NCBI GenBank assembly: GCA_013368325.1
Contig: JAACJK010000002.1
Location: 930,001-994,000, forward strand
Length of the DNA stretch: 64,000 bases
Source: Ephemerocybe angulata
Lineage: Eukaryota > Basidiomycota > Agaricomycetes > Agaricales > Psathyrellaceae
Direction: 5' to 3'
The position numbers and the translations under genes are program-made. Positions 5,457 through 53,079 of the stretch are shown in pieces; the first letter of the stretch is position 1; each line of letters begins with the position of its first letter. The notes under the pieces are model-generated. The model worked only from the letters and a program-made list of their open reading frames with translations, did no database searches and was not told where the DNA came from.

Positions 5457-5839
5457 CACCTTAGTCACATAGGAAAAGTAACCTATTAGGTACAAACATT
5501 TCTCTTTCCCAGGTACCCAAGAGGTTAGGGATTTCCCGCCATTTCCAGAGCCATATTTCCTCCTTGCCCCGTTCGTATTACCCTGGCATTTTCCAGGGTC
5601 ATTCCTTTCCTTTTCCATGCAATTCTTTCCCTTTCCAGGGTGGCTTTTTTCCTTCCCATGGACCAATTTCCCCTACTATTTTCCCTACCCTTTCCCCCTT
5701 TTCCACATCATTTCCTCCATCAATGTCACAGTCACGGGGTGTCCGGGGTCCTACCCCTGTTTTTTTTTTTTTTTTTTTCGCTTTTGCGTTTTTTTGGTAC
5801 TTTGGCCCGAGGATCAGTCGGTGCTATACAGGGGCAATT
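5457..5839 (+). repeat. KDZ transposon left terminal inverted repeat
   Basis: Matches the reverse complement of 23196-23570. By eye the arms are identical apart from the length of a homopolymer tract (about 18-19 T left, 12 A right), with one or two changes at the inner end. They are pyrimidine-rich on this strand, with many TTTCC/CCTTT runs. Confidence 0.9.
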
Positions 5840-6822
5840 CTAGCCTTGAGAATGGGGCCCGGCAAGCTCCGAAACCTCTCAACGCATAACCCTCACCACA
5901 CCATTGATAATTTCTCAGATCTCGGCAGTAGGGACACCATTTTGGGATAAGAATACGCAAACGCTGGGCCCAATTCCAGCTATTTCCACTGCCTCATTAC
6001 TATTACCTAGGTAAAGAACAAGCCCTATATTCAACCTTTACCTCTACCCTTTTCCCTTTCCAGGGCATAGATCTCTAACCTGGGAAGGAGCTGTTCTACC
6101 CAAAGACTAGTGCCCTTACCCGAAGATGCTCTTTCAAGACAAAACAGACTTGAACGAGCATGAAACCTTGACCTAGAATGAGGCTATGTTTCCTGACCAG
6201 GTAATCCTTCTATTACCATGGAAAGGGAAAATGTGCATCAATCATGAAATCTTTACCAGGGATAAGGATATGTTTCCTGACAATCACCAGAGGGCAATAC
6301 GAAAGTCAGTAAATCGTGTGACCAGATAATAAATCTGTCACCATGGAAAGGGATAAGGGACATCGATAGAACCAAAGCCTATCCCTGGTAACAGAATCCC
6401 TTTCCTTTATAGGCAAAGCCATTACCCAGCATTACCCAGCATTACCAGCTTTTCCATGACCAACTAGCAACAAGAATTAAAAAGAAATGGCATAAGGGGG
6501 AATGGAACTCCTGCAGCCTTCATGGTACCGAATTGTCCTTCGATGTCATGGGTACCACTGAGCTACAAGGAGTTCATAAGACAAAGGCCTCCTTACCTAT
6601 GCATACTCCTTTCAGTACCTCTATAGATTATCATCAACACGAGTACAGTCCTGGCCTAAGACTCAAGAGTAACCCTGGCTATCTATACAGCATAATTTTA
6701 ATACATATACAAATAGAAGGCCTTGCATATTAACACAACATTATGCCCAATCAATGCGAGGCAGGACAATGCGGATATTCATACCTTCTCCAACTTAGCA
6801 CATTGGCTATTGTATTGCAAAA
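5840..6822. other. Left subterminal region of the KDZ transposon
   Basis: No gene is supported. The stretch is AT-richer than its surroundings and holds repeated short motifs of the type TTACCATGG/CCATGGTAA and CCCTGGTAA/TTACCAGGG in both orientations, for example near 6195, 6213, 6252, 6336, 6380 and 6440. The matching right-hand region carries the same motifs. Subterminal repeats of this kind commonly bind transposase in other DNA transposons; binding here is inferred. Confidence 0.6.
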
Positions 6823-6939
6823 CTAGGATAGACTTGCTACAAAATAAAGCAACCAAACCATAGGTAATCCAAGGTTGCTATTTATTCCCTCTTTGTCACC
6901 TTGAAGAGAGCAAGGAGATCGAGGAGGAGGAGGAGGAGG

Positions 6940-7290
6940 AGGAGGAGTGCCAAAAAGGGTAAGCTTACCAAGATTGATGGTTCCCGCGCGAGCGTACAGC
7001 CACTCGCTCGCGCCGAAAAAAGCGCCAAGTCCCCCAATAAAGCCTCCTGTAAGGCCGTAGTACCTTTGGAGATCTACTAAAGGCAATATGAGCAGTTATT
7101 AAGGCATTATAGACCGATCTGGCGACTTACAATCTCTTAGGCAAGTCGAGGGGGCCCAGGAGGCGAGGAGGAGAGGCAGGAGTAGGCGGCGGATACCAAA
7201 AAGGGTAAGCTTACCAAGGTTGATGGTTCCCGCGCGAGCGTACAGCCACTGGCTCGCGCCGAAAAATACAGCCAAGTTCTCTTTCGAGGG
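6940..7290 (-). repeat. Exon-like repeat unit, left (inverted) copies
   Basis: One copy at about 6950-7080 and a partial one at about 7190-7270, both inverted relative to the tandem array at 21324-22170. On the minus strand the full copy reads as an exon between an acceptor-like TAG and a GGTAAGC donor. It has an open frame containing G-G-F-I-G-G-L-G-A-F-F and W-L-Y-A-R-A-G-T-I-N-L-G. The 3' part of the unit is a CT-rich stretch (GAG repeats on the plus strand). See the right-hand array for comparison. Confidence 0.7.
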
Positions 7291-7337
7291 TAGAGATGGG
7301 CAACGGCAGGACAAATGTAGAACAATACAATACCAAA

Positions 7338-10300
7338 TCATTTACTAATCGAAGGTACTGTACAGATAGAAAGCCCCGATGGCGGGTCATTCACGTCGGC
7401 GCTTCCTGGGCGACCCAAAGTCAGAATCAACCGTATTCTCCTGGTCACTGCCCTCACCCCAACCTCCTCGTCCCCGAGAAGGTTCATAGACTCCAAAGCT
7501 TGAACGACAACGTCATCAGCCTCCAGCTCAGAGTCTTGGCTCACATCGCTTTCCTCCGAGTCGCTCCCCGCACCTGTATCGACAATGGGTGCCGTTGTGA
7601 TATCAAGTTCACCCACGGAAGTCCAGTCCAATGAATAGACGCCCGGTGCGACCGCTCTGATTAACCCTCGCCAAGTCGTGATGAGCTTAGAAAGCTCTTC
7701 TTTCCGTTTATGAAGCTGGTATTTGATATTCTCGCAAACTAGAAACACGCAGTGTTAGAAAGCCATCGTTACCGAAGACAAGAACTGACCGGTTTCCTCT
7801 AAAGCCTTGTGAAGACCTTCCCACTCTCGTCGGGCCCATGTGTGAAGGTTAAGGCATTCTTGCTTCAGCCTAACCAGTTCCTCGTCGCAGCGCTGGAGAT
7901 CCAACCATGCAATGATACCCCTACGGATCTCGTCGTTTCCGAGCCACCCCGGAATCTCTCCAGAAGCTACATCGTTCAACCCGGAGTCGTCCCATATCGG
8001 TGCATCGACGTCCATCGAGTACAGCTCTTCCTTCGGAATAGGACGCGGGGAAATGGCGCCCACCGGTGCCTTACCCTCCCTAATCATCTTCTCCAAATCC
8101 CTGCACATGTCGTTATACTTCTTCATAGTGCTGACGATGGTGCCTTGGTGCCGACCGACTTGTTTCTGAATGTGCGAAAGAAGGCTGGACTCTGGAAGAA
8201 CAATCCGTCGCCCGTCAGCCTCTTTTCAACCACAGACAGCACAAGGATATAAAGACTCACCGTTCGCCGATACCCGCTGGTACGCCCGATCCACACGTTC
8301 AAACTCAAACTTACGTCCCTGGAGCTTCGCCCGAAGCCGCTCCTTCACTGCCAGAGCCTTCAGACGCAGCTCCAAGTACTTATCCTTGATTAAATCCTTC
8401 AAATCCCTCTCGTCCCGCACCCCCAACGCCTTCCGTTTCGCCTCTATCTGCTCGGAGACCTCTTCCACACGGGCGGCTAACAAGCCCCTCGACTCCACAA
8501 GGTCTTCCAACCCATCCGTCGCCTGCATCCTCGCTACCTTACGGTCGATTTTCTGGATATCTTTCTGTAGGTTCGACCTGAAATCCATGAGACTCAGGAT
8601 CACCTTTATACTCTTCTTCGCAAGCCCCCCGGTAGCAACGACGAGTGGCTTCGTTTGAGCACCCACTTGCGATTCCCATTCTCGACGGAGCTCGTCCTCG
8701 CTGTACGTCAGATCTCCGAGCACCTCCAACGCTGCGTTTCGTTTTGCCCGACACTTCTCGAACTTCCGTTTAATCCACTGCCCGAGGAGGAGTAGCGACT
8801 GCCCGCGTAGATATGACACTTGAACGTCCAGCGTAAAGAGCCGCTGGTGATACTAGAATAAAGCAGTTAGTCCCCGAGACACGCAGAATCGGAATGAGAA
8901 CGCACCCCCGAGACGCGCAGCGTCGAAATGAGAAACTCGATAGCGCTCCAGAACCGCTCGCAACCCTCGCCATCCGACAGCCCAAAGCCCTTGCGCTTCC
9001 GAGGGTGGTAAATGAGCTGGCAAGGCCATTGGTGACCGTAGGCGTGGAACACTGACACTGCCCAGCTTATCCTCGGTGTAATTTCCACCATCATCCCCCA
9101 CTTCCGACAGCTTCTCTCCAACTGACACCCGATGTCGTACATGATCCCCACCGACGTGTCCTTGGGGAGGTGCTTGAAGAGCTTCAAGATGAGTGCGATA
9201 GCGAAGTACTGACGTTCCCCGGCCGTAGTCATATTTGCGAGCCACAGGACTCTGTCGTGACGACAGAGCAGTGCCATGAGGCCCGTGTCCGCGAAGTATT
9301 TGGTGCTGGCCTTCGTCCGTTTCTCGTCGGCCGCCTTGAAGGAGTCCAAGCAGGCATCCAACACGGACTTCGGAACCTTCATTCCTTCCTCAACCATGTC
9401 AGGCCCCGTTACTGTCTCCTTCGATCCCGTCTCCTTCCTGGGCGCCTTCGCGCGCGAGGGCCGAAGGTCCTCCACGTAGTTCTCTGCACTCTTCATTTCT
9501 TTCCGCGTTAGGAATGCGGACATCGGATGGCGAAGTGGAGGGTCTTTGGTTCTACCACGAACGGGATTGCGCCTCTTCTGTGTGAAGCAGGCGTCCAAGC
9601 AGACTATAACGTCCGGTCTGTCGAATAGACCATCAGTGAATGTAGCAATACACGAACGGAATGAGACTCACTCTGAACCCCCTTTTACTATCCCCTCCCT
9701 CGCTCCGAAGCAAGCAGGACAACAAACCGCAAGATAATTGAGCCCGCTGTCCTCGACATCCTCCCAAAACCCATCCTCCTCCCCTTGAGTAACGGCCACA
9801 TCACCCTCTTTCTCCCCATCGACACCACCTCCCCCTAGTGCCTTTGATAAGACCTTTTGCAAGGCCGCCTCTGTCTCCAGGCATAGAACAGTATACCACC
9901 GGAGGCTGGCCGTAAACTTCCGCCGTATGACATCCTGCCCTTCGATCCTATACCCTCGGGACCTCAGGAACGCCTCCAGTGTAGCAGTCCACGCCGTCTT
10001 ATTGGGGGCGCACCGCAAGTGCAGCTCTCGAACGAATTCCAGCATCTTCACGTCGAAGGCATACGATGGTCGCAGGGGAACGGATGACAAGTAACCCATT
10101 TGAAACAGCAGGACTACCGGCTGGCAGCTGCAAACAGAAGTAGGGGTGAGACCTAATGCGCAAGAATTAGCTCATGGGTACTCCGACGAAGAGATAGCTG
10201 GCGAACTCACCGTCCCACGATACCAAAGTCACCTTCAACCTCCGGGTTGTTGGGAGGCACGCACACGACGGAGCTTCTCTTGATATATCCCGCAGGTTCT

Positions 10301-10679
10301 CCGAAGTCCTAAGCAACTCCAGATAAATGGGAATAAGGCGAGGGATCACCTCGAGCGTCCATCGCTCCCATTGGGCCCGACGATAGTCTCTTGTCCTGCG
10401 CGGCGACGACGTAGGCTGGTCTTCGAGTGTGAAGGCGCGGGTGGGTGATTTGTCACGATCTCGCGAAGGAGAAGAGCCCTGTTTCGATGGGGAGGAGCCA
10501 AGCACTTGAGAGAAATCACCGGCCGGAGTCCGCACGTCGACTTTGGGGAAAATTGAAACGCCAGAGGATCCGTATGGTCTGCGTTTAGGAGTGCCGGTAG
10601 ACGCTTTCCATCGAGATGTCTTCGTATTGGCCCGCGAGCCAGCCTTGTTTCTAATAGAACTAGGTAAGCGGAAACTCAT
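7338..10679 (-). CDS. KDZ transposase (1018 aa)
   Basis: DDE-type transposase of the Kyakuja-Dileera-Zisupton superfamily, expected to cut and join the element's ends in the nucleus. Exons (minus): 10679-10211, 10152-9672, 9617-8906, 8852-8261, 8191-7790 and 7738-7338; all introns are 51-69 bp and the sum is exactly 1019 codons. Visible motifs: R-A-Q-W-E-R-W and C-A-C near residues 110-145, the cysteine motif V-C-S-C-Q-P near 165, C-P-A-C-F near 310, C-L-D-A-C-F (first Asp, ~323), Y-D-I-G-C (second Asp, ~475), G-L-S-D-G-E-G-C-E-R-F-W (Glu, ~540), then L-R-V-S-G-Y-H and a long coiled-coil C-terminus. Start chosen at the ATG beginning M-S-F-R-L-P; an upstream in-frame ATG at 10787 is less likely. 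No broken motif is seen, so it may be active. Confidence 0.93.
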
Positions 10680-10902
10680 TGGAGAGAGGAGAGTCACCGG
10701 CGTCAAACAAAATGCCCAAGTTACCAAAAGCGGTCGATATCGGTGCACGTGCCAAGGAACCGGAACTTCGGGCCTGAAAATGGACATGGAACGGAGAATG
10801 GCATTGCTACAGCTACAGTCTAAAGTACCAAATGTAAAGATCTTAGAATAAGTCCAGAATCAGCTTGGGGCACCCAAAATCAAGTCGTCGCGGCTTACCT
10901 CC

Positions 10903-13538
10903 TCAAACACAGACAGGCCCAGTCGAAAAGAGCGATCCAAAGAAAGAAGCCGGACCTTTGCGACGAAGGGCAGCCAAGGGTAGGCGAACAGGGGGGATGG
11001 GAAGCCGGCCGTATTGAGCGTAGAATGTGTCGCAGTAGAACTCAACGACGATTTTCTCCAACCGCGCCATACCCTCCTCCACCATCTCCAACGGCGAGTT
11101 CAAGATTGAACCCGGGCACCGTGGCCACCTCATGACAACGTCACGGAGAGCTAGGACATGCTCAGCCCGCTCCCGCCAGTTCAAAGACGCCAACCCCTTG
11201 TCGATGTTGGGCATCGCAGTGAGGTAGAACCCTTCGTGCACTCCTTTCGCAGCAGGGAAGACACTACGAAGAACCACCTCACGGTGCATGCGTGCCGTGG
11301 ACTTCTCCGTCTCGGATCCGACATCGTCAGCAGCGGTCCTCCAGACGTCTGGCAGAAGCTCCCGGTCGAGAACTAGCAGCTCCATCCGAAAGTTGAATTC
11401 GTGGAGTTCGTACATGATCTCGTCGACCGTCTCGTCGGACATCTCTCGCTGCAGAGTCTCCATGTTCCCAAGGATGATCTGCTTCTTGAGCCATGCCACT
11501 CTTGAGATCTTGGACGTCCGCAATGGCAAGTTCTCGTGGCGGGGGTGGAGGGCCCTTCCTTTTGATTTCCGGGAACCTGGCTTTGAAGACGAACCGTCTC
11601 CGGGAAGAGACTCAAGGCGAGCGCGCTTGGAAGGTCGTTGTTCGGATGTCGAGGGGACGCATGGAGGGATGAAACCGTCGAAGTGATATCGTAGCTGGTT
11701 GAGGAAGTTCTTCCACTCCTGGGTAGATGGGAACGACGCCGATGTCCACTCCTCCTCTTCAATCGACAGAGCAATCAGGGCTGCTCGACACGTCAACCAC
11801 CCTCCACTGTACAACTTGGCGAGCCCCGAATGAGCCAGGATCTTGGGGGCAGGCCCGATGGTCCCCGTCAGAGTCTTGCTCTTCGCAACCACATGGCCTC
11901 TCTCCTTCGAAATGGCAGTTAGCCAGGATGGGATCTGGGGGAGGGCTCTGCTTTGGGCGGTAGTGATGTTGCTTGATGGTAAACCGGCGGACGTAGTGAC
12001 GCTGCTTGGTGGGTGAGAAGCGGAAGGCATCGTTGAAGAGCCCGGTCCTGTCGGGAGTTGATAGACCGCGTCTGTTGGAGGGGTCAGTTACGAGCGTCTT
12101 CATGACGGCAAAGAGAATACGTACAGGGCAATAGATCGATTGAGCGAACGTGGCGGTAGCCGTCATCTTTGTCCGCACTCCGAGAGGGTACACCCATCGT
12201 TGAGACATGAGTGCGCCCCGACACGCGGCATCCGATGCGTTGGAGAGCATCCTGGAGGGGGGTACCCGGGAGCCCGAGATACAACCGCGGGAAGGGGTAT
12301 ATCATCGTACCGCCCTGATCTACCGGCAACTCCTCGTGGAATTCCTCGGTGACGATTGGGCGACTTTCGGCAATGATCGTATCCTGGATCTTCTCGACTT
12401 TCGCCAGGGGGCTCACCGTCATTGTGGGGGAGATATCGCACACGGGGCGCACAAACCATAGGGGAATTCCAAGGCGATGAAGCTTTTGGGCCTCAGCGAG
12501 GTCGTGCGTGAATGCACCCATAATGGTGTTGTCGACAGGGAACTTGGCTTCGGGATTGTCGGCGAGGGAGCGAAGACGAGGGAGGAATCTTGTCATCCAG
12601 GTGATAATCGCGTCGATGTCGAGGCAAGTCCTCTGGAATTCCCCGACGTTCAGGACGATTGACCTGAAGGTCATTCCCATCGTAAGGCGCTCCAGGGTGA
12701 AATTCATGTGAGTCACCAGGAGCGCCAGCAAGCTCAATTGGCGCTCCTTGAGGAACTCGCGACTGCGCCGGCCGTACGTCTCCTCAAACCGGCGGAAGTG
12801 GTCCACGATGGCGGGATGCAGTACACGGATGTTCTTGTTCGAAACGGAGGGTACGATGGGGCAGTCGCTGATCTTCACTCTGTAGAAGAGCATCTCGTTC
12901 TCGGGGTTCTGGCGAGGGCAGCAGACGATGTACTCGTGCTTGGAGGTTGCGAACTGGGGGTAGCGGCTCCTGTCGTCGTAGCCGTAGTGTCCGTCCGCAA
13001 ATGCATGGGCGTCGCGCACACCGAAGGGGGGCATGAGGATGAAGGTCTGGTTTGGGCTAAAAATGCCCCAGACTGTGCCCTCCGGAAGGGACGACCGCAC
13101 CCCTCCATCCTCGAGGACTTCTTCAGCCCGAACCGGAATCGTCGTGACGAAATACGCCAAGGCATCGGTCGCCGAGTAGTTATCTATACAGAGGTCGTGA
13201 GCGAAAGTTACGAGCGAGCGATCCTGTAGCACGTACCGGGGAGCTCCTTCCCTGGTCCCAAGTATACGTTGAAATTAATGGTGGGATGTCGCTTGACTGA
13301 GACCGACGGTAGCGGGAATGGCCCAAGCCGCATTCGTATTTCGGGCTTCGGGAGAGGAGAAGCTGAAGTCTTGACGACCGCAGGCTGCGGAGGGGATTGA
13401 GATGGGGCAGGAGGCGCAGGAGGAGTAGCGGCAGAGGGGACGGCCGGCGCAGGGGGAGGTGGAGACCTCGTCGACTCGCCGGACTGAAACACGGTGAGGT
13501 TAGCGCATTGAAAGGCCGTAGAAACTTGTACTCACCAT
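10903..13538 (-). CDS. KDZ-element companion protein, unknown function (825 aa)
   Basis: Exons (minus): 13538-13536 (the ATG alone), 13483-13237, 13183-12125 and 12071-10903, totalling 826 codons in frame. The second exon is proline/alanine-rich. The centre contains F-T-H-D-L-A-E-A-Q-K-L-H-R-L-G-I-P-L-W-F-V-R-P, a pattern I associate with an expanded Agaricomycete family of unknown function. A basic, serine-rich linker follows, then a conserved-looking C-terminal half (N-W-R-E-R-A-E-H-V-L-A-L-R-D-V-V). No catalytic motif is recognised. It lies 220 bp upstream of the transposase on the same strand. An accessory role in transposition is plausible from position only. Its 5' UTR contains two introns, each with three conserved hairpins. 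Confidence 0.8.
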
Positions 13539-13587
13539 GATAGCTGGGTCGTGTAGAACAGAAGTTATATAATCGGGCGGCCAATAC

Positions 13588-13765
13588 CTGTGAAAGTGTC
13601 AGTCGTTGAAGGATAAATCACGACGAAAAGTCGACGACCAAAGAGTCAAGTCGAGTAACACCACAGTGGACGACCAAAGAGTCAAGTCCGTAAGTGACGA
13701 CCAAAGAGTCAAGTCACTTCTGTAGCAGGGTAGAAACAGGGGAGGTAGGCGAACAGGAGACTTAC
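13588..13765 (-). promoter_or_regulatory. 5' UTR intron with triple-hairpin module (copy 1)
   Basis: On the minus strand an intron runs from a GTAAGTC donor (13765) to a TTTCACAG acceptor (13588), upstream of the ATG at 13538. It holds three hairpins at 13692-13719, 13668-13689 and 13631-13654. Each has the loop TTGACTCTTTGGTC, with stems AAGTGAC/GTCACTT, GGAC/GTCC and TCGAC/GTCGA. The stems differ from each other but each is self-complementary. Confidence 0.75.
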
Positions 13766-13808
13766 CGGGACGCGTTCTTGGTGTGTGATGTGATGAGACG
13801 AGGAGGAC

Positions 13809-13990
13809 CTGTGAAAGGGTAAGTCGCTGATGCATAAGATAAAGCAAGACGAAAGTCGACGACCAAAGAGTCAAGTCGACTAAACACCACAGTGGACGAC
13901 CACAGAGTCAAGTCCGTAAGTGACGACCAAAGAGTCTAGTCACTTCTGTAGCAGGGTAGAAAGAGGGGAGGTACGCGAACTTGGACTTAC
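13809..13990 (-). promoter_or_regulatory. 5' UTR intron with triple-hairpin module (copy 2)
   Basis: A second intron, created by a ~225-bp tandem duplication of exon plus intron. The 43-nt exon 13766-13808 separates it from copy 1. Hairpins lie at 13918-13945, 13894-13915 and 13854-13881. Loops are TAGACTCTTTGGTC, TTGACTCTGTGGTC and TTGACTCTTTGGTC; stems are AAGTGAC/GTCACTT, GGAC/GTCC and AGTCGAC/GTCGACT. Confidence 0.75.
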
Positions 13991-14035
13991 CGGGACGCGT
14001 TCTTGGTGTGTGATGTGATGAGACGAGGAGGACGC

Positions 14036-14228
14036 GGGTGGAAATTGTTATGGCCCCAAGTTCCCACGGGTGCTATATCTGACACGTGCCCACTGGACAG
14101 GGGTCGGAGTCCCAATCCTGCCAACGTACACCCTCCATCTCTCACCGCTCACCTTTCTCAGACTCCTACGCAGCGACGGGACGATGGCCAGCACATGAAA
14201 ACGAAGTGGATGCCGGAAAGACGAACAG
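14036..14228. promoter_or_regulatory. Divergent promoter region of KDZ cargo genes
   Basis: Lies between the minus-strand 825-aa gene and the plus-strand 198-aa gene. The first exons of both transcription units appear to start here (first donor at 13990 on minus, 14229 on plus). A TATA-like ATATAG run occurs near 14073 (either strand). No other element is recognised. Confidence 0.4.
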
Positions 14229-14500
14229 GTGAGTACTCAGAAGATCTCGTCCTCCCCCATCATGCCACCAGATCCTCTTCTCCTCGGCGGCGCAGCTTGA
14301 CTCCTTGGTCGCTGCGCCCATGCCCACCTCACCATAGCTTTGACTCCTTGGTCAGCTATGGTCGCTAGCTTGACTCTGTGGTCGCTGGCGTTTTGAGGTT
14401 TGGGGCCCTGGTGCACTCCTCCGTGTCCAATCGTTAAGCGCCCGTGTCAACTTTCGCTTACCATGACCTTTTATAGCCTACCACTCCTCCCTGCTCTCAG
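14229..14500 (+). promoter_or_regulatory. 5' UTR intron with triple-hairpin module (copy 3)
   Basis: Donor GTGAGT at 14229; acceptor CTCTCAG ending at 14500 (or CAG at 14510). Three hairpins: 14289-14318 (stem GGCGCAGC/GCTGCGCC), 14331-14362 (stem ACCATAGCT/AGCTATGGT) and 14363-14390 (stem CGCTAGC/GCTGGCG with one G-U pair). Loops are TTGACTCCTTGGTC twice and TTGACTCTGTGGTC. Upstream of the 198-aa gene, sense orientation. Confidence 0.75.
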
Positions 14501-14830
14501 AACGACTCAGGTAGGTTTAGTAACTATTGATTCTATTGTCACGAAAGCTAACCACCTATCATGGTTCGCCCTAGCCTCCATCGCGATGATAAGAACCGTT
14601 GGGCCTGGTCCGTGCGCGCACCGCGGATCGACAGGGCATTCCCGAGGCAACGACCGCACTTGACGCCTAGATTTTTATATCTATGTGATCAGAGCGAAAA
14701 TACCTTTCGAATGAGCCCAGCCGGAAGGCATGGCGAGGCCGTTGGAATAAAGGTCAGACCATTGCCAGAAATGTGCAATGATCCAATTAACTTTCTCCTT
14801 AAGCAGACCTTTTGGCTCTCGACAACCACA

Positions 14831-15536
14831 ATGCCGCCCGGGCGTCTGCGACTGTACACCACCCCTGAAGAGAAAAAGGCCGCAAATCGTTCTAAGAGTA
14901 ACCGTTCCTATCAGCGGTATGTATTATTCATGGAGAGGGGCAACCATATATTCATTTGTGCGATAGGTACAAGGAAGTCATCAACAAGGCGAAGCGCGTT
15001 GGTCGCAGGAAGGCTGCCAGGTTAAAGCAGAAATACGAGCCAGAGGAGGCCCCAAAAAAGCCTCTCCCTGCCCAGAAGTGAGTCCTATTCGCTTTGCTTT
15101 GGCACTCGGAGTAGACGTTGTTTAACGTCAATGAAGACCAGCCCGAACGGATCTCGAGGTCCTGTCTGACCGCATCCCCCAACTCGAGAAGCGCCTTGAC
15201 ACCGCCATGGATAACAAGAACCTATCGGAATACCTCAAGTCTCTGTGCGAGAAGTTCGCCGCCCGCCAGAAGGACGATTTGGAAGGCGCCGGGGTCATCT
15301 TTGACGAGGAGGAGGAGAAGTTATGCAAGATCAGCACGGCGGTTCACAAGTATCAGTCCTTAGCGACTAACTTGGATTGCTACGGAGGGTCCTGGCGACT
15401 CTGGGAGCCCTTACGTCGTCGGGTAGCTGAGGCATTGAACGAAGTTCTTGAACTGTCTGGGGAGGCGATACTGGGCCCCGGTCAGCTGGTGGTGGACCTC
15501 CGACGAGGCTCACTGCGGTTCCAGAGGAGGGCCTGA
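14831..15536 (+). CDS. Small basic protein of the KDZ element (198 aa), unknown function
   Basis: Exons 14831-14916, 14967-15077 and 15137-15536 give 199 codons in frame. The N-terminus (M-P-P-G-R-L-R-L-Y-T-T-P-E-E-K-K-A-A-N-R) resembles a short basic, repeat-like segment I recall from many hypothetical Agaricomycete proteins; I cannot verify this. The middle is strongly basic (R-V-G-R-R-K-A-A-R-L-K-Q-K) and suits nucleic-acid binding. The C-terminal 130 residues are mixed helical with no known motif. It lies between the divergent promoter and the 1352-aa gene. The second acceptor (AATGAAG) is weaker than usual but is the one that keeps the frame open. Confidence 0.65.
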
Positions 15537-16327
15537 GTCTTCGATTGGAGGAGCATCTTTAGGCGGTGAGTAGATATACTTTACATGTTCTCGTTCTGGT
15601 ACTGAGACTGCTATAGGGAGACTGAGCTAGGGTTCTCTACCGACGATCCCCTCACCGAATTCAATTATTCAAGGATGAAGAGGCAATTCTACGGTAAATA
15701 CTTCTGTATGTAGAAGGATATATATTCAAATAATTGGCCCGCTGTTCTCTTTCTGACGTCCCAGGCTGACCGACTCGAAGGACTCGAGGATTGTGCCTGG
15801 AGGGAGGAGGCGTAGGCGTGAGGCCCGATTCAGCTCGGCATCGGCAAGGAGGTCCCACCTTTGGGGAATATTTCGTTTGGCGCCTATTCTGCCGGTTTCG
15901 GGGGCCTTGATTTGATGGGGCGTCTCGGCCATCGGCTATGGCAAACATCCCAACTTCAACAGCGCGGCGTCGTTCCTCTCCCTCCTTCCACCTCGCTCTG
16001 GCCTCAACTCACGCTGTGTGGGATTTCAACAGGTGATTCAACGTGAGTTTCTCTCTCTTCCCAGAAGCACATTCAACGTTGAGCTAATCTCGCTTGTAGA
16101 GCCCCCGGCCTGCTTGGCGGGTAAACTTCAAGCGCCCCAGCTGATCCGCCTCGCACCCTGAAATGTGAGGGTACGCGGGCGAATATTCAGGTAAGAATAG
16201 AGCCAAAATATGGGCCCGGAACCCCCGCCCGTCCGGGGGTCTGGTTGCGGGGCTTTATAGGGCGAAATTTTTCATCTCCCCTCTTTCCCGACCTTCTCTT
16301 TCTCGTTCCCCTCCAACCGCTCTGAAA
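15537..16327. other. Intergenic region with promoter of the 1352-aa gene
   Basis: No gene is supported. A TATA-like TTTATAG at 16254-16260 lies about 70 bp upstream of the ATG at 16328. It is preceded by a small GC hairpin (CCCCCG and CGGGGG, about 16220-16240). The rest shows no feature I can name. Confidence 0.5.
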
Positions 16328-19300
16328 ATGGTACGCCCAATTTTTCTCAAATAAGGATGGCAATTAACTTACTTTGACCTTCCAGGCCACAGCCAAGAAG
16401 CGTAAAGCCCCTCAAGCCCCTCGTACTCGCGCTCGTACTCGCGCCGCTGATCCTGCTCCCGCCCCAAGGTAAGTTCGGTATCCTCTTCATTTATCAACCC
16501 TCCTTTCTTCCCCGACGCGCTCTGGCTTGACTCGTTGGTCGCCGAGCTCCCAGCTTGACTCTTTGGTCGCTGGGCGTCGGTTTTCTCCGCTTGACTCGTT
16601 GGTCGCTGGAGTGTTCGACCTTCTCGACAAGGACTGTCACGCTAACATTGCTGCGCAGCCCTGCCCAGGAAGACGAGGAGGAGGTTCATGGTTCGCCTCC
16701 ACCCAATGAGGAGGAGCAGGAGGAGGAGGTGGCTGGTGGATCTTCTGCGCCGGTCGACGATCAGGAGGACGAGGAAGTCGCTCGGGGCTCATCCCCTCCC
16801 GTTCATGATGAGGAGGACGAGGACGGTGCTCAGGATGAAGACGGTGCTCATGGCTCATCGCCACCCGTCGAAGATGGTCAAAGGTGTGTCGAATAACTCG
16901 GCTTCGCCGTCGTGGGTTGCTTATTTACATGTAGTCTATTTACCCCTCGTAGAGATCCCTCGCAGAGCGACTCTGACTCCGGGGAACGGACGCCGTATGG
17001 AGGACGGCCATCGAAGTCGCCAACCTTCCCTCTCCTGCCCTTCGGATACAACGCACCTTACGGGTACCCTCGCTCACGACAAGGTTCCTCCCCCGCCGCC
17101 GCCCCCGCTGTGGCGACCACATCGACATCTTCCGCTCGTGCCACTGCGGCCCTCATCAACAAAGCGACCGATGTAACGGAGAATCTTCGTCGCCTCTCGC
17201 AGCCATATGTGCGGGGACAGGGGTGAGTACTGGCCATCCTTCCCTCAGAATTTCTCAATCTGACTCGACGTTGTTACCAGTTCTATCTCCAACCAAAACG
17301 CCTCCTCTTCGGCGACCCAACGTAGTGTTGCTCCACCCAGGAGAAGGTACGCACAATCATGTCACGTACGATACCAGGTAGCTGACTCGCGATGTCTTCT
17401 ATATAGCCCCCCATCAGGCCCTGTAGCCAGCGATGAGGACGCCGGGGACTCTACACCTACGAGCACTCGACCCAAGCCTCGCCCCATTCCTCGTGCTGAG
17501 GATGCTCCGCCCGCTCCCGAGTGCCCTTCCACCACCTGCGACTACGCGTACAACCGTTCAAGCCTGAGGTCGAAGCCTGAAGGGTACTACTGGGTGCAGT
17601 GTGGGCGCACTGCTCCTGGCCTGAGGGGTCAGTTTGTGCTCACAGCTTGGATCCGCCTCGTCCCTGTGCCTCGGCGCTATATCCTGGACCCTGCCGCACC
17701 GTTCCTCGAATACACCACCTTCTACAATACGACCAGCCTGCGCTGGGAGCGTCTTCCTGCTGGCTACGTCCCAGAATGGGGGAGCGGTCGCCATTCTTTG
17801 CTCCCAGGCCCCGAGATCGACATGGAAGAGCAGTGGGACAATGCTTGCGAGAGGGTCCGTATCCTGGAGGGTCGACGAAGCGCCGCCTCTCCTGCTCTAC
17901 CTGCTCCTCCACCATCAGCCTCCACCGCTGGCGGCATGCTTCGTGGAGGTACCCCAGCCCTCCCAGCGACCACCCGCCCATCCCGTTCGGCTCGCGTCCC
18001 TCAGCGCTTTGGTGACTTCGAAGTGCACAGCACGGCGGGTATCCCGGCTCTTTCCCCAAGGAAGAAGAACAGGGAGGAAGTCATCGAGAGCGACGCGACC
18101 GACACTCGCGACGAAGACTACGATATGGAGAAGGATGGAGATGCTGAGTCTTCTGATGAAGATATGGGCGACGTCGAGCCCGAAGACGAGGATGACTTGG
18201 GTGTTCAAGTTCGGGGCAAGCGCCCCCGTCCCGACGATGAAGACGACGAAGATGCCGAGGACGGTCAAGTGGCCGACGAGGAAGAACCTCGTGCTCGACG
18301 CAAGAAGGGAAAGAAGAAGAAGAAGCGGGCTCGTCACTCAACTCCTCCTCCTCCTCCTCGCTCACCCACCCCTGATGACGAACACGATGAGGAACCAGCA
18401 AAGCCTCGACGCGACAAGGGAAAGCAGCGCGCTCCTCGCTCCGCCAGCCCTGAGCCTGGCGTTGGCATTCCCCGGAAGACCATTCTCACCAAGGAAGGCC
18501 GCGCGGAGATCGATTCCCTCGTACAGACAGTCGAGAATCTTGCTCGTCAGTACGGTCGGACTCCCAGGCAACTGCTTGAGCTCGCGGGTTTTCGTATTGG
18601 CCTCGCGAGGGACCCGAGCCCATTCAATATTTTTCAGAAATGGTTGAAGATTCAGGCTGATACCCCACGGTGTACGTCTACATCGATCTTGTCCCGTGTT
18701 CGATCCACTAACATCTCATTATTCAGTCCCGCGAGGCCCTGGCTTTGCTCAATACGCTAGCAACGAATACTGGAAGATGTCGCGGGAGGAAGTCGAGGAC
18801 AGGATTGAAGGATGGCAAATGGACCTCCTCCATAACGAAGGGGCGGGGGGCGAGCCTGAGTTCTCGACGACGGCCGTTCGCGAGATGACTCAAATCGGCC
18901 ACCAGCTGGAGGATATCGTGAGTCTAATCTCTTTCTACCACTTGCTTTCCTAACGCATTTCCCTTCAGTGTCACAGTCTCCGCCTCACGACCGACGTCGA
19001 CTTGACCTGCATTCTGACGTCCCGTGAACCGGTTGCTCGCCAGATGTCGACGGTGTACGCGTCATCTGATTCCGTTCGCGCTATTGCGCAGAGGGAGCAG
19101 GTATCTGTTCGTGCCCTTCTCGAACGCTACATCACCTCCTTACAGTATGTACATTGCCTAATTGATGCTTGTGAAATTTGCTGACTCTTCCTCAGGGCTA
19201 TTGACATGGGCATCGTGCAGGCAGACTCAGTCTCCCTTGAAAACATGTTTGGAGTCGCCGGTGGTTCGGGTGGTGCCCCTGTTAATGCTGACGACGAGGA

Positions 19301-21083
19301 GGCTGAGGCCGGGGGTGGGGCCGACGGCGAGGCGAATGCGACTGCTCCTCCCGCTTACACTTCCCGTGTGGCTCCCTCCAGGAAGAAGGCGTCTACTGGT
19401 CAGGACTTGCGGCTTTTGGGTGGCACCTTTCCCAACGGGGCCGATTGGGTTAGAAAGCACAACGAGTCGAACAAGGATCACTATCGACGTGTAGTGAGGA
19501 TGATGATTCAAGTCCTATTCTGTACGTATGCGTGATCCTCTCATCTTTTCGGTTTACTTACCCGTTTTTTCTTTAGGTCAATTCGTCGATGTTCCCAACT
19601 TCACGAACTTTTGGAAGAAGATTTTGGTCCTCTTCGTTAAGTATCGGGTGTGCCTTCGTGATTGGCCGCGTCATATCCCGGCGCCTGGTACCCTAGGATT
19701 CGAAATCAACAAGTTGGAGCATGCCAACTTAACGGAGCTCCACACAGCCTGGACCAGCGGCGCCGAGGAGCAGCAGAACGCGCCTTTCTTTGACCACTGG
19801 GACGATGGTAAGCTCTTATATTTGCGTGTCTACAACAAAATCCTGACTCCGGCGCTGCAGAAACTGCTGGTATTGCCCGAGACGATCCTGCGTACTTGAA
19901 CATTGCCCTGGTGATCGGAATTACGGAGTGTGGGGAGGAGGTTGTTCTCGTGAGGGTTCGCGACTGCCTTCCGGTTGTTCAGGAGCTCGCAGCTCGCAAT
20001 GCGAGATCGGGGAACAACGATGGTGGCAGGGACGCACATCCTCTTGCCCGCGCTCGTGCTCGAGCAGCGGGTGCTGCTGCCTTTGTGGAGAGGGAGCTTG
20101 GGGGGGATCGTGAAAGGCGTGGAGACGTTAGGAAGAAGGAGGATCGCCGTCGTAAGGAGCGCGTGGATGGCGGGGAGGTAGAGGTGGAGTCGGGCGATGG
20201 GAACGGAGAGGACGGATTGCCCGAAGAAGATGGAGAAGACAACGACGAAGACAGTGGTGCGCGGGCTCGTCCAAAGCCAAAGCCAAAGCCAAAGTTTGTG
20301 CAGGGCTCATCCCGCTCTGGGGAGGCCAGTCGTTTCCCTCCGAGCGATCTTTCTGCCGCTTTGAGTGCTCTGAAATCCGGTCCTCCTCCCCCTGTTCGTC
20401 GTCCCGCCGAGCCGCCAGCTCCCCCTATTCGTCGTCCCGCCGACGTTCTGCCTCGAGGCTCTGGTGGTCCCACTGTACGGGCTCCGGTCCCACGCATCAT
20501 TCTTCCCGTTCATAACTCCCGTTCTGGTCAGGCTCACAAGCTTCATGAGCGAACGGAGTACAGGCGTGCTCCGGCCGACTTTGAGCACAGGAGGGGCCGT
20601 CAAGCCTCACGTTCTCATTCCCCAGTTCGCCCTCCCCGTCGCTCCCCTTCGGTTCCCCGTTCTCGCCGTGCTCGCTCTCCCTCAGTTGCCCGCTCTCGCC
20701 GTGCTCGTTCCCCCTCCGTTGCCCGTTCTCGCCGTGCTCGTTCCCCCTCCGTTGCCCGTTCTCGCCGTGCTCGTTCCCCCATCATTGCTCACTCTCGCTG
20801 GAATCGAGCGCCTTTCCCTCAGCGATATCACCACTCCCGATCGCGCAGTCCTTCCCGCTCGTACCATCTTCCCTCCCGGTCCAGGTCTCCTCGTCGCCGT
20901 GCACACTCGGGCTCTCGCAGGGACTCTCGCTCTCCCTCAAGGGCTCGTCGCCGTGCACACTCGCGCTCTCGCAGGGAGTCTCCCCCTCGTCGTCGCGGTA
21001 CTGGCCGTACCTTCTCTCCTTCGCTTGAGGAGGAAGGTGACGATGACGATGACGAACCGTATTCACGGAACGAGCGTCGATAG
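16328..21083 (+). CDS. KDZ cargo protein with acidic segments and SR/RS-rich tail (1352 aa)
   Basis: Eleven exons: 16328-16330, 16386-16468, 16659-16883, 16953-17222, 17281-17346, 17407-18671, 18727-18917, 18969-19144, 19196-19521, 19577-19807 and 19861-21083, summing to exactly 1353 codons. The first exon is the ATG alone. Order: basic patch (residues 2-28), acidic low-complexity (29-100), a globular-looking part with W, Y and P (about 260-350), an acidic/lysine stretch (420-520), a helical central region (550-950), and a C-terminal tail from about 1186 rich in R-S and S-R, including four copies of an 11-residue R-S-P-S-V-A-R-S-R-R-A repeat. RS tails are typical of splicing factors, but no RRM is visible. 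Its second intron carries the triple-hairpin module. Function unknown; intact. Confidence 0.75.
16469..16658 (+). promoter_or_regulatory. Intron 2 of the 1352-aa gene with triple-hairpin module (copy 4)
   Basis: Donor GTAAGT at 16469, acceptor CTGCGCAG ending at 16658. Three hairpins: 16519-16547 (GCTCTGGC/GCCGAGC with one bulged T), 16549-16574 (CCCAGC/GCTGGG) and 16585-16611 (CTCCGC/GCTGGAG with one bulged T). Loops are TTGACTCGTTGGTC, TTGACTCTTTGGTC and TTGACTCGTTGGTC. The intron is about three times longer than typical introns in this window. Confidence 0.75.
20644..20786 (+). repeat. 33-bp in-frame tandem repeat coding RS repeats
   Basis: About four copies of a 33-bp unit (GTTCTCGCCGTGCTCGTTCC-like core) encoding an 11-residue arginine/serine repeat inside the last exon of the 1352-aa gene. 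The last copies are nearly identical, which suggests recent slippage. Confidence 0.85.
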
Positions 21084-21319
21084 ACTTGTTTCTTTACTTA
21101 AAAGCAGGGGTTACGTAGATGCAAGTTAATTATCTTTTCTTTCTCCCTTGTTCCTTGACTCGTTCCCAAAAGTATATTACTCCCAAGGCTCCTTGTATCT
21201 CAGTAGCTCTACGAATGCATTTTTTTCTCCTCCCTTTTAGGGTTCTACTTAGTTCTATTTTGTTTCTTTATCTACAACGCATCCGGCCTTACAGATACCA
21301 GAAGGAACTTGGTAGTTTC

Positions 21320-22170
21320 GGGGCGAGCGAGTGGCTGTACGCACGCGCGGGAACCATCAATATTGGTAAGCTTACCCTTTTTGGTAGCCTCCTCCTCCTC
21401 CGGCCTCTCCTCCTCGCCTCCTGGGCCCCCTCGACTTGGCTAAGAAATTCTGAGTCGATAGAACGGCCCAGAATGCCTCAATTATTGCTTATATCGCCTT
21501 TCCTAGATCTCCAAAGGTACTCTGGCCTTACAGGAGGGCTTCATTGGTGGACTTGGCGCTTTTTTCCGTGCGTGCCAGTGGCTGTACGCGCGCGCGGGAA
21601 CCATCAATATTGGTAAGCTTACCCTTTTTGGTAGCCTCCTCCTCCTCCCGCCTCTCCTCCTCGCCTCCTGGGCCCCCTCGACTTGGCTAAGAAATTCTGA
21701 GGTGACAGAACGGCCCAAAATGCCTCAATTACTGCTTATATCGCCTTTTCTAGATCTCCAAAGGTACTCTGGCCTTACAGGAGGGCTTTATTGGTGGACT
21801 TGGCGCTTTTTTCCGTGCGTGCCAGTGGCTGTACGCGCGCGCGGGAACCATCAATATTGGTAAGCTTACCCTTTTTGGTAGCCTCCTCCTCCTCCCGCCT
21901 CTCCTCCTCGCCTCCTGGGCCCCCTCGACTTGGCTAAGAAATTCTGAGGTGACAGAACGGCCCAAAATGCCTCAATTACTGCTTATATCGCCTTTTCTAG
22001 ATCTCCAAAGGTACTCTGGCCTTACAGGAGGGCTTTATTGGTGGACTTGGCGCTTTTTTCCGTGCGTGCCAGTGGCTGTACGCGCGCGCGGGAACCATCA
22101 ATATTGGTAAGCTTACCCTTTTTGGTGCACTCCTCCCCTCCCCTCCCCTCCTCCTCTTCTCCTCCTCCTC
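21320..22170 (+). repeat. 247-bp tandem array of exon-like units, right side of the KDZ element
   Basis: The junction GGTA(G) recurs at 21383, 21630, 21877 and 22124, exactly 247 bp apart, giving three full units and partial flanks. Copies two and three are almost identical. Each unit has a TTTTCTAG acceptor-like site, about 120 bp of exon-like sequence, a GGTAAGC donor-like site and a TCC/CT-rich spacer. Compared with the inverted copy at 6940-7080, these copies have an extra G (GGAGGG versus GGAGG) that breaks the reading frame. The encoded segment (W-L-Y-A-R-A-G-T-I-N-I-G, with G-G-x-x-G-G upstream) resembles a membrane-protein piece, but I cannot name it. Confidence 0.85.
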
Positions 22171-22373
22171 ACTCTCCTGCTCCCAGGAGCATCCAGGCTT
22201 GGTTTGGGCAAAGCAGCTTGTGTTGTTTTATAGTTCTACATGTATTTAGATTACATTGAATATATATGATCAGGCCTGCCTTCATGTCTGTAAGTTAGGT
22301 ACTGTTTGATTACTTGGCAAGCAAGCTGGTTAGTGATTGTCTCTTGCACAACTGTGACACCCACCCTGAGTCT

Positions 22374-22511
22374 GACCTTCTCCCCGTTGCTGGATCCTGA
22401 AGGTACTTTATCTTCTGCGGATCCGCACTCAGCCCCGGATAGGACCTTCTCCCTGTCGCTGGATCCTGAAGGTACTTTATCTTCTGTGGATCTGCACTCA
22501 GCCCCGGATAT
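22374..22511. repeat. 69-bp tandem duplication
   Basis: GACCTTCTCC recurs at 22374, 22443 and (start only) 22512. The copies differ by a few substitutions. Confidence 0.85.
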
Positions 22512-22980
22512 GACCTTCTGCATTCTTCTAAGTCATTGGTTATGGAAGAGCTGGTCATACCTGGTAATGTGGGAAATGGTCTTCCCTAGGTGGAAAGATA
22601 TTCTGTTACCAGGGATAGACATTTCCATCCATGGTAAGGGATTTCTTTACCTAGGAATAGAATGTATGCCCTGGTAATACCGTCCCTTTACTTTTGGGTT
22701 GTCTTTTGATGCGTAATAGAAATTTGCTCCCTGGGTATAGTTCCAAAGAGGTCTGGTCATAGTTACGGAATACAGAATGCTCCTTGGACATAAATCTATG
22801 CCCTGGTAAAACATTGGTCAAGGGAACAGGTAATAGATTTCCATCCATGGTAAGGGATCTCTTTACCTAGGAATAGAATGTGTGCCCCGGTAATACTGTC
22901 CCTTTACTTTTGGCTTGTCTTTTGATACTTATTGGCAAGTATACTCTTTGGGAAATATATCCTCTTCCTGGGTAATGGTT

Positions 22981-23048
22981 CTGTGCCCAGAATAGGGTCA
23001 GGGTAAGGTCAATTCTGTGCCCAGAATAGGGTCAGGGTAAGGTCAATT
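22981..23048. repeat. 34-bp tandem duplication
   Basis: Two perfect copies starting CTGTGCCCAGAATAGGGTCA at 22981 and 23015. Confidence 0.9.
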
Positions 23049-23195
23049 ATACTGCTTTTCTTTTATCTGGGTATTAGTATAGTGCCATGGTAATGTTCTG
23101 AGAAAGAGTGAACTAAACTGGAAAGGATTTGGGAAAGAGAAGGAAAGGGTGAATTATTAGCCGAATCAACGTAATACAGTTGTGAGGGCTATAAA

Positions 23196-23570
23196 ATCGC
23201 CCCTGTATAGCACCGACTGATCCTCGGGCCAAAGTACCAAAAAAACGCAAAAGCGAAAAAAAAAAAACAGGGGTAGGACCCCGGACACCCCGTGACTGTG
23301 ACATTGATGGAGGAAATGATGTGGAAAAGGGGGAAAGGGTAGGGAAAATAGTAGGGGAAATTGGTCCATGGGAAGGAAAAAAGCCACCCTGGAAAGGGAA
23401 AGAATTGCATGGAAAAGGAAAGGAATGACCCTGGAAAATGCCAGGGTAATACGAACGGGGCAAGGAGGAAATATGGCTCTGGAAATGGCGGGAAATCCCT
23501 AACCTCTTGGGTACCTGGGAAAGAGAAATGTTTGTACCTAATAGGTTACTTTTCCTATGTGACTAAGGTG
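23196..23570 (-). repeat. KDZ transposon right terminal inverted repeat
   Basis: Reverse complement of 5457-5839. It ends GTGACTAAGGTG and is followed by the target duplication CGTGAAT. Confidence 0.9.
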
Positions 23571-23577: not shown

Positions 23578-24054
23578 CTGCTGACCCTCCTTCAACACGA
23601 TGCTGACGCCGGTGACCCAGTATGACTGCCTGCGAGCACGCAAGGCGCTCGCGACCTTCGGCGATATCGAGAGGTTGGACTGAGACGTGCAGGCCGAGTT
23701 GGCGATCTTCGTGCATCGCATGTCCTTCGCGCATGTGAGCCGAGCCCCGGTCGACGAACGAGAGGAGGCTCGTGTCCTCGCCGTCGAGCTAATGGACAAG
23801 CCGACGATGACCGAGATCATCAGGCAAGCCAGGCCAGACATCGACGACATCAACCTGGCGGACGAGCTGCACATGTTGTTTCGCTGGGCCGACCGATACG
23901 CGCCGTACGCCGAGAGGATGGAGGAAAGGGGAATGGAGATCGACGGAGGAGAGGAAGACAACTATTTTGGACGAAGGATGACGAGGGGAGTGTGCTTGGA
24001 GTTCGAAGAGCTCGACGCTCGCTTCAGAGCCGGCAATTTTGAGTATCCCGACGC

Positions 24055-27000: not shown

Positions 27001-27886
27001 GCTGGAGGTTGTGTACGATGCGGAGCGACTTCCCGTCTTTCTTGAGGACCCAGAACCACTGCGAGCGGTAGGCGGCGTTGGAGGGCTCGATGGTACCGGC
27101 AGCCTGCTTCGCCTTGATGATGTCGATGATTTTGGAGTAGAGACCGGGCGGGATGGGGATGTTCTTGAATATCCAGACGTCGTGGTCGGTCGTCAGGATC
27201 TGCACGGGGGGGAAGTACTCATCCGAGAATATACCTTTTTCACTCTCATCCCACGCGAACGACGACTCGCAGTTGACGAAAAACCAATCTATTAGCTTCT
27301 CCTCTTCTGTCGTAAGAAAACCATCCTTGTTTAATCCCATCGCGTCTCTCCTCTCCTGTGTATAACGCTGACCGGGAACGAAGTCGGGAGGGTGCGTTGG
27401 AAGATCGGGCATGTCGACGAGAGGGTCTCGGGGAACGGTACGTTCAATTCGGAACTGGGGAGGCAGAGCGGCGGAGACGGGTTTGACACGATTCGCGACC
27501 TTCTTGTATTTGAAGGTCTCGACGTACTTTTGGGATTCGAACTCGGCCTGAGGATATGATCCATCGGCGTCAGGTTCGAGCGATATCTCGGTGATCGAGA
27601 CGGCGTGCTCACGCACGTAATTTTGCCCAGATTTATCCTCGAGGGTGGCGAGCAGGTTTTGCGAGACAGTGGAGTGAGAAAGAACAGAGTTATAAAACGA
27701 AGCAGATGGAGGAGAGGAACGAGACGAGGCAGGAGACGAAGAAAACGATGAAGAGAAACTGGGAAGAGACGAAACGGGATTGAGAGGAGACGGAGACGGG
27801 GCAGCCGGGGCACCATGGGTGCTATGGCTCGGCGTAGGGGCTGCTGTGGGCGCCGAGTCGATGGGAGGGTCCCCGACTACACTCAA
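24055..27886 (-). pseudogene. pol: Gypsy-1 pol: reverse transcriptase, RNase H, integrase (frameshifted)
   Basis: Read on the minus strand. The reverse transcriptase has the active-site box F-I-D-D (near residue 390) inside F-I-D-D-V-P-V-R-G-P. RNase H (A-V-D-S-S, then E-V-D-A-R-Y-I-K-G-M and A-A-D-G-L-S-R) and the integrase H2C2 finger (A-H-D-A-L-G-H ... C-H-E-C) follow. The integrase core continues in another frame (first Asp region lost near the break, T-D-N-G-K-P, then E in P-V-E-R-R-H). The break is a 37-bp tandem duplication at 24983-25056; 37 is not a multiple of three. The frame begins at a TTG overlapping the gag-protease stop, so expression probably needed a -1 frameshift or reinitiation. 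The element could not make a whole integrase now. Confidence 0.88.
24983..25056. repeat. 37-bp tandem duplication in Gypsy-1 integrase
   Basis: The segment beginning TGCGAAGCGGGGAGGAACAT occurs at 24983 and again at 25020. It shifts the reading frame between the H2C2 finger and the catalytic core. Confidence 0.9.
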
Positions 27887-27892
27887 AAATCC
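27881..27892 (-). other. Candidate -1 frameshift site, Gypsy-1 gag-pro/pol
   Basis: Minus strand GGATTTTTGAG: the gag-protease frame ends GAT TTT TGA while the pol frame reads TTT TTG AGT. The frames overlap by four bases and the T run would allow a -1 slip. The same GGATTTTTGA sequence occurs at an ORF junction of Gypsy-2 (48640). Confidence 0.55.
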
Positions 27893-53005: not shown

Positions 53006-53079
53006 GGCCGACTAGCTCAGTTGGTTAGAGCGTCGTGCTAATAACGCGAAGGTCTTGGGTTCGATCCCCACGTTGGCCA
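53006..53079 (+). tRNA. tRNA-Ile (anticodon AAU)
   Basis: 74 nt with a complete cloverleaf: acceptor stem GGCCGAC/GTTGGCC (one G-U pair), D arm GCTC/GAGC, anticodon stem TCGTG/CGCGA with loop CTAATAA (anticodon AAT in DNA), and T arm with GGTTCGATCCC. There is no intron. A and B box sequences are present, and a T5 run nine bases downstream (53088-53092) suits RNA polymerase III termination. Confidence 0.96.

Follow-up and report, generated by a model that had tools for sequence, protein, structure and literature searches.

Introns of a DNA transposon in the agaric Ephemerocybe angulata (Psathyrellaceae) carry arrays of three small hairpins whose outer stems covary around a conserved core, which suggests that they are RNA switches by which the transposon controls its own genes. 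The transposon, a KDZ element of 18.1 kb, lies in the stretch of 64,000 nucleotides (nt) that we analysed (the window; contig JAACJK010000002.1, positions 930,001 to 994,000, here called C47). Our preferred reading, to which we give a probability of about 0.48, is that the hairpins constitute an RNA operator regulon, probably one of autogenous splicing control, read by an 825-residue protein that the element itself encodes.

The arrays lie in four predicted introns of three accessory genes of the element, which we name after the lengths of their products (825, 198 and 1352 amino acids, aa). An initial annotation of this DNA had reported twelve copies of a 14-nt core, T[TA]GACTC[TCG][TG]TGGTC, flanked by copy-specific complementary stems and distributed exactly three to an intron. 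All twelve exact cores were located, in two sets of six, on the minus strand at 13636-13938 and on the plus strand at 14297-14383 and 16527-16604; the named stems are present, including one with a G-U pair (14361-14392) and two with bulges (16518-16549 and 16582-16613); and the counts of three hold in introns across whose junctions the 825-, 198- and 1352-aa models are in frame throughout. The introns and hairpins are:

13588..13765, minus strand: second 5' untranslated region (UTR) intron of the 825-aa gene (825b), predicted, 178 nt, three hairpins
13627..13658, minus strand: hairpin 825b-3
13663..13694, minus strand: hairpin 825b-2
13690..13721, minus strand: hairpin 825b-1
13809..13990, minus strand: first 5' UTR intron of the 825-aa gene (825a), predicted, 182 nt, three hairpins; tandem duplicate of an intron and exon unit
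13852..13883, minus strand: hairpin 825a-3
13889..13920, minus strand: hairpin 825a-2
13916..13947, minus strand: hairpin 825a-1
14229..14476, plus strand: 5' UTR intron of the 198-aa gene, predicted, 248 nt, three hairpins
14288..14319, plus strand: hairpin 198-1
14331..14362, plus strand: hairpin 198-2, 9-bp stem ACCATAGCT/AGCTATGGT
14361..14392, plus strand: hairpin 198-3, one G-U pair
16469..16658, plus strand: intron 2 of the 1352-aa gene, predicted, 190 nt, three hairpins
16518..16549, plus strand: hairpin 1352-1, stem with a bulge
16546..16577, plus strand: hairpin 1352-2
16582..16613, plus strand: hairpin 1352-3, stem with a bulge

When up to two mismatches to the core were allowed, the window yielded 14 matches, against a mean of 3.94 and a maximum of 9 in 100 shuffles. 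Related arrays occur in further KDZ elements of the same genome, which we group into hairpin families A (the window element on C47), B (C117), C (C67), D (C115), E (C134), F (C28) and G (C147). Comparison of 69 hairpins from these seven families revealed a two-part structure: a variable outer stem, mostly of 4-10 bp, a 2-nt 5' bulge of the form U-N, an invariant GAC/GUC stem, and a loop that starts with UC. An extra U-G pair is present in families A-C and D-F (59 of 60 hairpins), leaving inside it a loop of 4 nt in A-C and of 5 nt in D-F, and the extra G is lacking in the hairpins of family G. The core is the most conserved part of the hairpin; an exception is the third hairpin of the 198 array of family C, with U instead of G. 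The constant loop claimed in the initial annotation stands insofar as each element has a single core length, and gives way across families, where the length is 14 nt throughout A-C (36 hairpins), 15 nt throughout D-F (27 hairpins) and 13 nt in all six family G hairpins examined (five of these six were found by a length-free search). These lengths were read from the sequences, with one search that also allowed other loop lengths, and the arm-swapping script described below set the length by family. The identities of the loop bases differ among the hairpins of one element.

To evaluate the stems statistically we used a set of 60 hairpins, 57 of them distinct, with 500 shuffles and slid structures as controls; the copies on C16 and C37, which are near-identical to C117, and that on C217 were left out of this and the 69-row set. 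Consistent with the earlier proposal that selection acts on structure, 93.0% of the cells were paired, against 75.1 +/- 1.1 in the shuffles, 130 cells were doubly changed, against 48.3 +/- 5.3, and the covariation score was 0.497, against 0.153 +/- 0.015, none of the 500 shuffles reaching the observed value in any of the three; the best slid control scored 0.121. A hand-picked set of 38 of the 69 rows, including family G, scored 0.660 against 0.189 +/- 0.022. RNAalifold, unaided, proposed the same structure. Likewise, when arms were swapped among the 69 hairpins, the mean pair run of 5.57 exceeded all of 5000 deals, both across all hairpins (2.33 +/- 0.14) and within the same intron position (3.62 +/- 0.19, maximum 4.32). 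Compensatory change thus keeps the outer stems above controls, as is characteristic of structured RNA. The three inner GAC/GUC pairs are invariant in the 60- and 38-row sets, and because they never vary this inner stem is beyond the reach of covariation. Mismatches in the inner five outer pairs comprised 12 G-U, 8 A-C and 17 other cells, so that G-U is not clearly favoured; those in the inner four comprised 7 G-U, 1 A-C and 6 others (5, 1 and 6 as separate events), counts that lean to RNA of the sense strand, are too few to settle the matter and make for a weak test of strand. Of three whole introns that were folded (two of the stretches being off by 1-2 bases at the intron ends), that of the 198-aa gene was clearly more stable than its shuffles (z -3.56, 0/200). 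A structural constraint of the RNA kind on the hairpins is, in our view, well supported.

Each of the 20 introns with assignable splice sites (the D 198, F 198 and F 1352 introns were left out) contains three cores; these introns are 172-268 nt long, with 44-81 nt from the 5' splice site to the first core, 44-113 nt after the last, and a core spacing of 26-43 nt. The nine other introns of the 1352-aa gene measure 51-69 nt, as against 190 nt for the hairpin intron. In the deposited 1352-type protein P0004 the exons on either side of the hairpin intron are connected in the same way as in the window model. The leader of the 825-aa gene holds a tandem duplicate of an exon and intron unit (13759-14033; 50 nt at 100% and 98 nt at 96% identity), and two hairpin introns are also present in this leader in families B, C and G, with one seen in D, E and F. 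Retention of the hairpin intron of the 1352-type gene would bring in a stop at codons 27-80 in all five families examined (in this analysis intron 1 of C67, 34 nt, is probably mis-set).

We then searched the E. angulata genome (58.7 Mb), the one genome covered by the pattern searches. The exact core was matched 73 times and its reversed control 5 times, and 68 of the 73 fell in six KDZ loci (C47, C217, C16, C37, C117 and C67), the other five being lone matches equal in number to the control. Two of the lone cores are the two copies of one C10 repeat (C10:1254 and C10:8676), outside arrays, with a possible shifted 7-pair stem. Two GACTCNNNGGTC cores 12-42 nt apart had 45 matches, all in the same six loci with 14-nt cores, and none in the reversed control. 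Triplets with the 15-nt core lie at corresponding places in C115, C134 and C28, which contain all 17 double matches of this form (control 0), and the 13-nt form with a leading T has all 10 double matches, in five triplets, on C147 (control 0). Without the leading T, the double 13-nt pattern gave 19 matches (control 2), namely the 10 on C147, 8 in an unrelated tandem repeat on C112 and 1 at an extra C134 site, and it is this loosest pattern alone that the last two match. The arrays thus occupy homologous intron positions in seven related KDZ families, and, apart from the C112 repeat and the extra C134 site, double cores are confined to them, as opposed to the genome-wide scatter that the initial annotation had named as the alternative to a KDZ association. 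KDZ matches number at least 170 in the genome, so that the elements with the module are a small fraction of a large group; more diverged forms of the hairpin may exist elsewhere in the genome. Viral contigs, searched with two forms of the core, gave no match. The array called 1352 in family F is so named from the likeness of its stems to those of E, the gene itself not having been found on C28. In family G, C147 carries three further triplets (301071-301162, 301566-301653 and 303677-303755) on its minus strand, which is not the strand of the 825 gene, and a gap of 2.1 kb, similar to that from the 198 to the 1352 array, separates the first two arrays of that strand; the earlier notion that family G has arrays with the 825 gene alone was dropped once these had been found. 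Searches with P0004 and with P0008, a deposited E. angulata protein identical to the 198-aa model of the window, found no gene on C147.

How the hairpins of one element relate to each other bears on whether they have a common reader. Stems from different genes in one element agree at 5.15 of 12 positions, against 5.02 for different genes of different families, while stems at the same position across families agree at 7.37 of 12; the two 825 introns of one element resemble each other. Core length has thus changed together in the different genes and the stems have not, an outcome that speaks against whole hairpins having been copied between genes. Uniform core length within an element whose stems are not homogenised points to a common trans-acting reader of the loop, possibly a single protein recognising bulge and loop together. 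Given that the loop bases vary within one element, such a reader would tolerate changes at some loop positions.

Our best candidate for this reader is the element's own 825-aa protein. Both halves of this protein match at nine loci (C47, C67, C16, C37, C117, C115, C134, C28 and C147), and arrays are present at all nine. A second, half-length 825 match on C37 (36387-37121) and a short fragment on C18 have no arrays that we could find. A further family, H (C146), has a KDZ gene and, over a contiguous 10.9 kb adjoining it, genes of the 198 and 1352 types; neither an 825 homologue nor a hairpin array was found there, and its counterpart of the hairpin intron is 51 nt long and has no hairpin. The transposase of H is 74-78% identical to those of A-E, and that of G 64-67% (we rely on pairwise identities, since F was not included in the KDZ tree and its outgroup row, C112, is a broken reading frame). 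As H is nearer to A-E than is G, which has both the 825 gene and arrays, H is best read as one joint loss of gene and arrays. It is because this close relative without the 825 gene is also without arrays in its 198- and 1352-type genes that we favour the 825-aa protein; the 198- and 1352-type proteins were set back as readers, H keeping both with no hairpins found. At more distant KDZ loci with 198-like genes (C214, C152 and C202) there was no 825 match, and the 2.5-2.7 kb that we examined at each of them contained no array.

The mechanism that we propose is as follows. The hairpins would be cis-acting RNA recognition sites, that is operators, placed as triplets in promoter-proximal introns of the non-transposase genes. 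The 825-aa protein would read bulge and loop in the introns of the accessory genes, its own leader introns included, and its binding to an array would switch the splicing of the hairpin intron. The sign would most likely be that of negative feedback, with a bound array leading to retention of the intron and the accessory proteins being turned off, which would limit the activity of the element as its copies accumulate. Our confidence falls from the existence of a trans-acting reader, through its identity with the 825-aa protein and the effect on splicing, to the negative sign, the weakest of these steps. More tentatively, and with the odds rather against it, the element-encoded reader and its loop might co-evolve, giving each family a private recognition code without cross-regulation among sister families in one nucleus.

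Several observations weigh against this proposal. The covariation check suggested in the initial annotation came out in its favour for paired cells, doubly changed cells and score, but not for the numbers of doubly changed columns and of pair types, which did not rise above shuffles in either the 60- or the 38-row set; the evidence sits in the cells. The fold of the 825b intron has a z of -2.26 (2/200) and its minimum-energy form contains only hairpin 1 as drawn, and that of the 1352 intron is not more stable than shuffles (z -0.71, 42/200). Fewer than four contiguous outer pairs are found in 5 of the 69 hairpins, one of which, from family F, has a C-A closing pair. ATGs are not in excess in the 5' UTR introns (0-4 in each, against about 3-4 expected, with 5 of 15 having none), so that translation would not necessarily be blocked if such an intron were retained. 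Family H is one family and one event, its joint absences could be explained by recombination between elements, few forks of the KDZ tree are resolved, and a strongly changed hairpin in H could be missed by a search model built on A-F. The C217 copy has arrays without the 825 coding region; because its identity with the window element is 98.9% over 8.2 kb, and 94.3% over a further 3.1 kb, that deletion seems recent. The 825-aa protein has no recognised domain and no relative in PDB, and an AlphaFold model of a homologue, from 5 sequences, had a mean predicted local distance difference test score of 34 and was not used. Finally, the 1352-type protein, rich in arginine-serine (RS) and arginine-glycine (RG), is a candidate RNA-binding protein too, though H keeps it without hairpins.

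Among other explanations, the hairpins could be constitutive splicing aids that need no reader from the element, either compacting long introns, so as to bring splice site and branch point together, or binding a host factor through the loop. The placement of the arrays in mid-intron, at the distances given above, and the length of the 1352 hairpin intron relative to its neighbours would suit such a role. Yet compaction requires neither a fixed bulge and loop, which belong to the most conserved part of the hairpin, nor the number three, and the counterpart intron of H manages with 51 nt and no hairpins; a host factor, for its part, poorly explains core lengths specific to families within one host and the joint absence of arrays and 825 gene in H. 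We consider this unlikely. Somewhat less probable still is an action on nascent RNA, in which a reader that binds close to the transcript's 5' end boosts elongation or tethers a protein to its own element, for which TAR/Tat is the model: the anatomy of bulge plus loop would be as expected, and so would triplets that lie, sense to each of three transcripts, in a 5' UTR intron or in intron 2, but such action has no need of a spliceosomal intron, and every measured array sits in one.

It is improbable to a greater degree that the introns, once excised, work as non-coding RNAs in their own right, or as sponges titrating a host RNA-binding or silencing protein. Splicing would indeed release an RNA with three hairpins from each of the 20 introns; against this, Rfam release 15 at the gathering threshold gave no match over the hairpin introns, its sole match in the window being a tRNA at 53006-53079, and at E<=1 the hairpin region had one chance-level match to a microRNA model, outside the hairpins. 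Sites acting at the DNA level, which might form cruciforms or be bound by the transposase or by the bZIP-like 198-aa protein, seem very improbable. Inverted repeats could extrude, the 198-aa protein has a basic N-terminus, TGACTC in the core resembles an AP-1/Gcn4 half-site, and G-U is not clearly favoured over the inner five pairs; on the other hand, all arrays with an identified gene are sense to it, the terminal repeats hold none of the exact cores, H keeps transposase and 198-type gene with no hairpin found, and the mismatches of the inner four pairs, too few to settle the point, lean to sense-strand RNA. Chance, or functionless tandem duplication of a short inverted repeat, we regard as having a negligible likelihood: the 825 leader does hold a tandem duplicate, but covariation is above controls, and the reversed patterns gave no double cores in the 14-nt, 15-nt and 13-nt (with leading T) forms.

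The element and the genes that carry the proposed operators have the following layout in the window:

5457..23570, no strand assigned: KDZ transposon with hairpin modules, 18.1 kb; 386-bp terminal inverted repeats (TIRs), 97.7% identical, starting CACCTTAGTCACATAGG; 7-bp target-site duplication (TSD) CGTGAAT
8867..9667, minus strand: KDZ transposase exon (PF18758, E 1.6e-59)
9668-10171, minus strand: exon of the transposase with cysteine cluster CxC1 (E 2.1e-8)
10903..13538, minus strand: 825-aa gene, 4 coding exons; fold not recognised; candidate hairpin reader
14831..15536, plus strand: 198-aa gene; N-terminus basic, bZIP-like by eye only
16328..21083, plus strand: 1352-aa gene, 11 exons; basic, RG-rich N-terminus and RS-rich C-terminus

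The PF18758 domain together with a CxC cysteine cluster places the window transposase in KDZ, and its gene had no hairpin array that we could find. The long RS-rich tail of the 1352-aa protein is encoded at 20500-21083, and its family H counterpart also has an RS tail. Searches of Pfam and PDB with the accessory proteins returned nothing above cut-offs, and, among the matches listed (about 8000 candidates), protein relatives of the element genes came from E. angulata and one Coprinopsis only. A covariance model of the hairpin, R1, built on families A-F and with rough E-values, recovered 10 of the 12 window hairpins at E<=5 in a default search, the hairpins at 14331-14362 and 16518-16549 not being among them.

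Termini of the form CA..TG with a 7-bp TSD were seen in the window element, in C217 (ACAAATG) and in C67 (GTCAGCG); the two flanks of the C117 copy do not match each other, and one end only was seen for C16. CCGTATC is both the left flank of the C16 copy and the right flank of the C117 copy, and this, with the C117 mismatch, may reflect recombination between copies or misassembly. Subterminal repeats of about 250-350 bp lie in tandem on the right of the element (21316-22163) and inverted on the left (6912-7277). Long open reading frames adjoining the element (24000-27913, minus strand) resemble, by eye in the list of reading frames, a polyprotein of a long terminal repeat retrotransposon.

The 198 leader has further recurrent features. 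After the third hairpin its intron has a conserved motif, (T)TARGCGCCCRTG, at 14430-14450, with counterparts in C115, C134, C67 and C117; TAAGCGCCCA occurs three times in the hairpin-less family H. A second motif, AAAGGTCAGA or close to it, precedes the 198 start codon (14746-14760); family H has as many as four occurrences, near positions 524, 602, 980 and 1375 of the segment L052. In the three B copies one longer hairpin-like match stands about 130 nt before the 198 array and is not part of the arrays.

Among known systems, the element is closest in type to the Kyakuja/KDZ transposons of Agaricomycetes, which, according to PMC12730594, have a KDZ transposase, CA..TG termini and a 7-bp TSD, two Laccaria elements (Kyakuja-1_LB and -2_LB) being described without TIRs. 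Those first three features are shared by the window element, which differs in its long TIRs; because of these 386-bp repeats at 97.7% identity we file it as KDZ and not as Kyakuja in the narrow sense. The main text of PMC12730594 does not contain the word 'hairpin' or mention hairpin introns. The P element, according to PMC7776569, has its transposase intron IVS3 retained through host proteins that act at a neighbouring exonic silencer. Here too a DNA transposon is proposed to be controlled by retention of its own intron, with the difference from the P element that the hairpin arrays lie in accessory genes, none having been found in the transposase gene.

In the open-licence literature of PubMed Central we found no paper joining Kyakuja, intron and hairpin, and within the literature searched no DNA transposon is described whose introns contain a recurring RNA operator that covaries. 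Were the 825-aa protein the reader, the system would be a natural RNA-protein pair, compact and with several divergent loop codes, and the protein might represent a new RNA-binding fold; how a transposon might keep count of its copies through splicing could then be studied directly. The three hairpins in each of 20 introns raise the clean question, why three.

In Rev/RRE and other retroviral export switches, a protein encoded by the mobile element itself reads a structured RNA within an intron. The arrays resemble these in being structured RNA inside an intron with a candidate reader from the same element, and differ in belonging to a DNA transposon and in being small hairpins repeated in several genes in place of one large element. 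In the iron-responsive element (IRE)/IRP regulon, one type of hairpin, with a bulged C, a 5-bp upper stem and a CAGUGN loop, occurs in several mRNAs and is read by one protein. The hairpin sequences described here do not follow the IRE consensus and have no match to IRE in Rfam, and unlike IREs they come in arrays of three, in spliceosomal introns of a DNA transposon, with a core length that differs between element families. What they share with the IRE/IRP system is a fixed bulge and loop on a variable stem, repeated in several transcripts; the single reader and the coordinated control that go with this in the IRE regulon are candidate properties of the transposon's hairpins.

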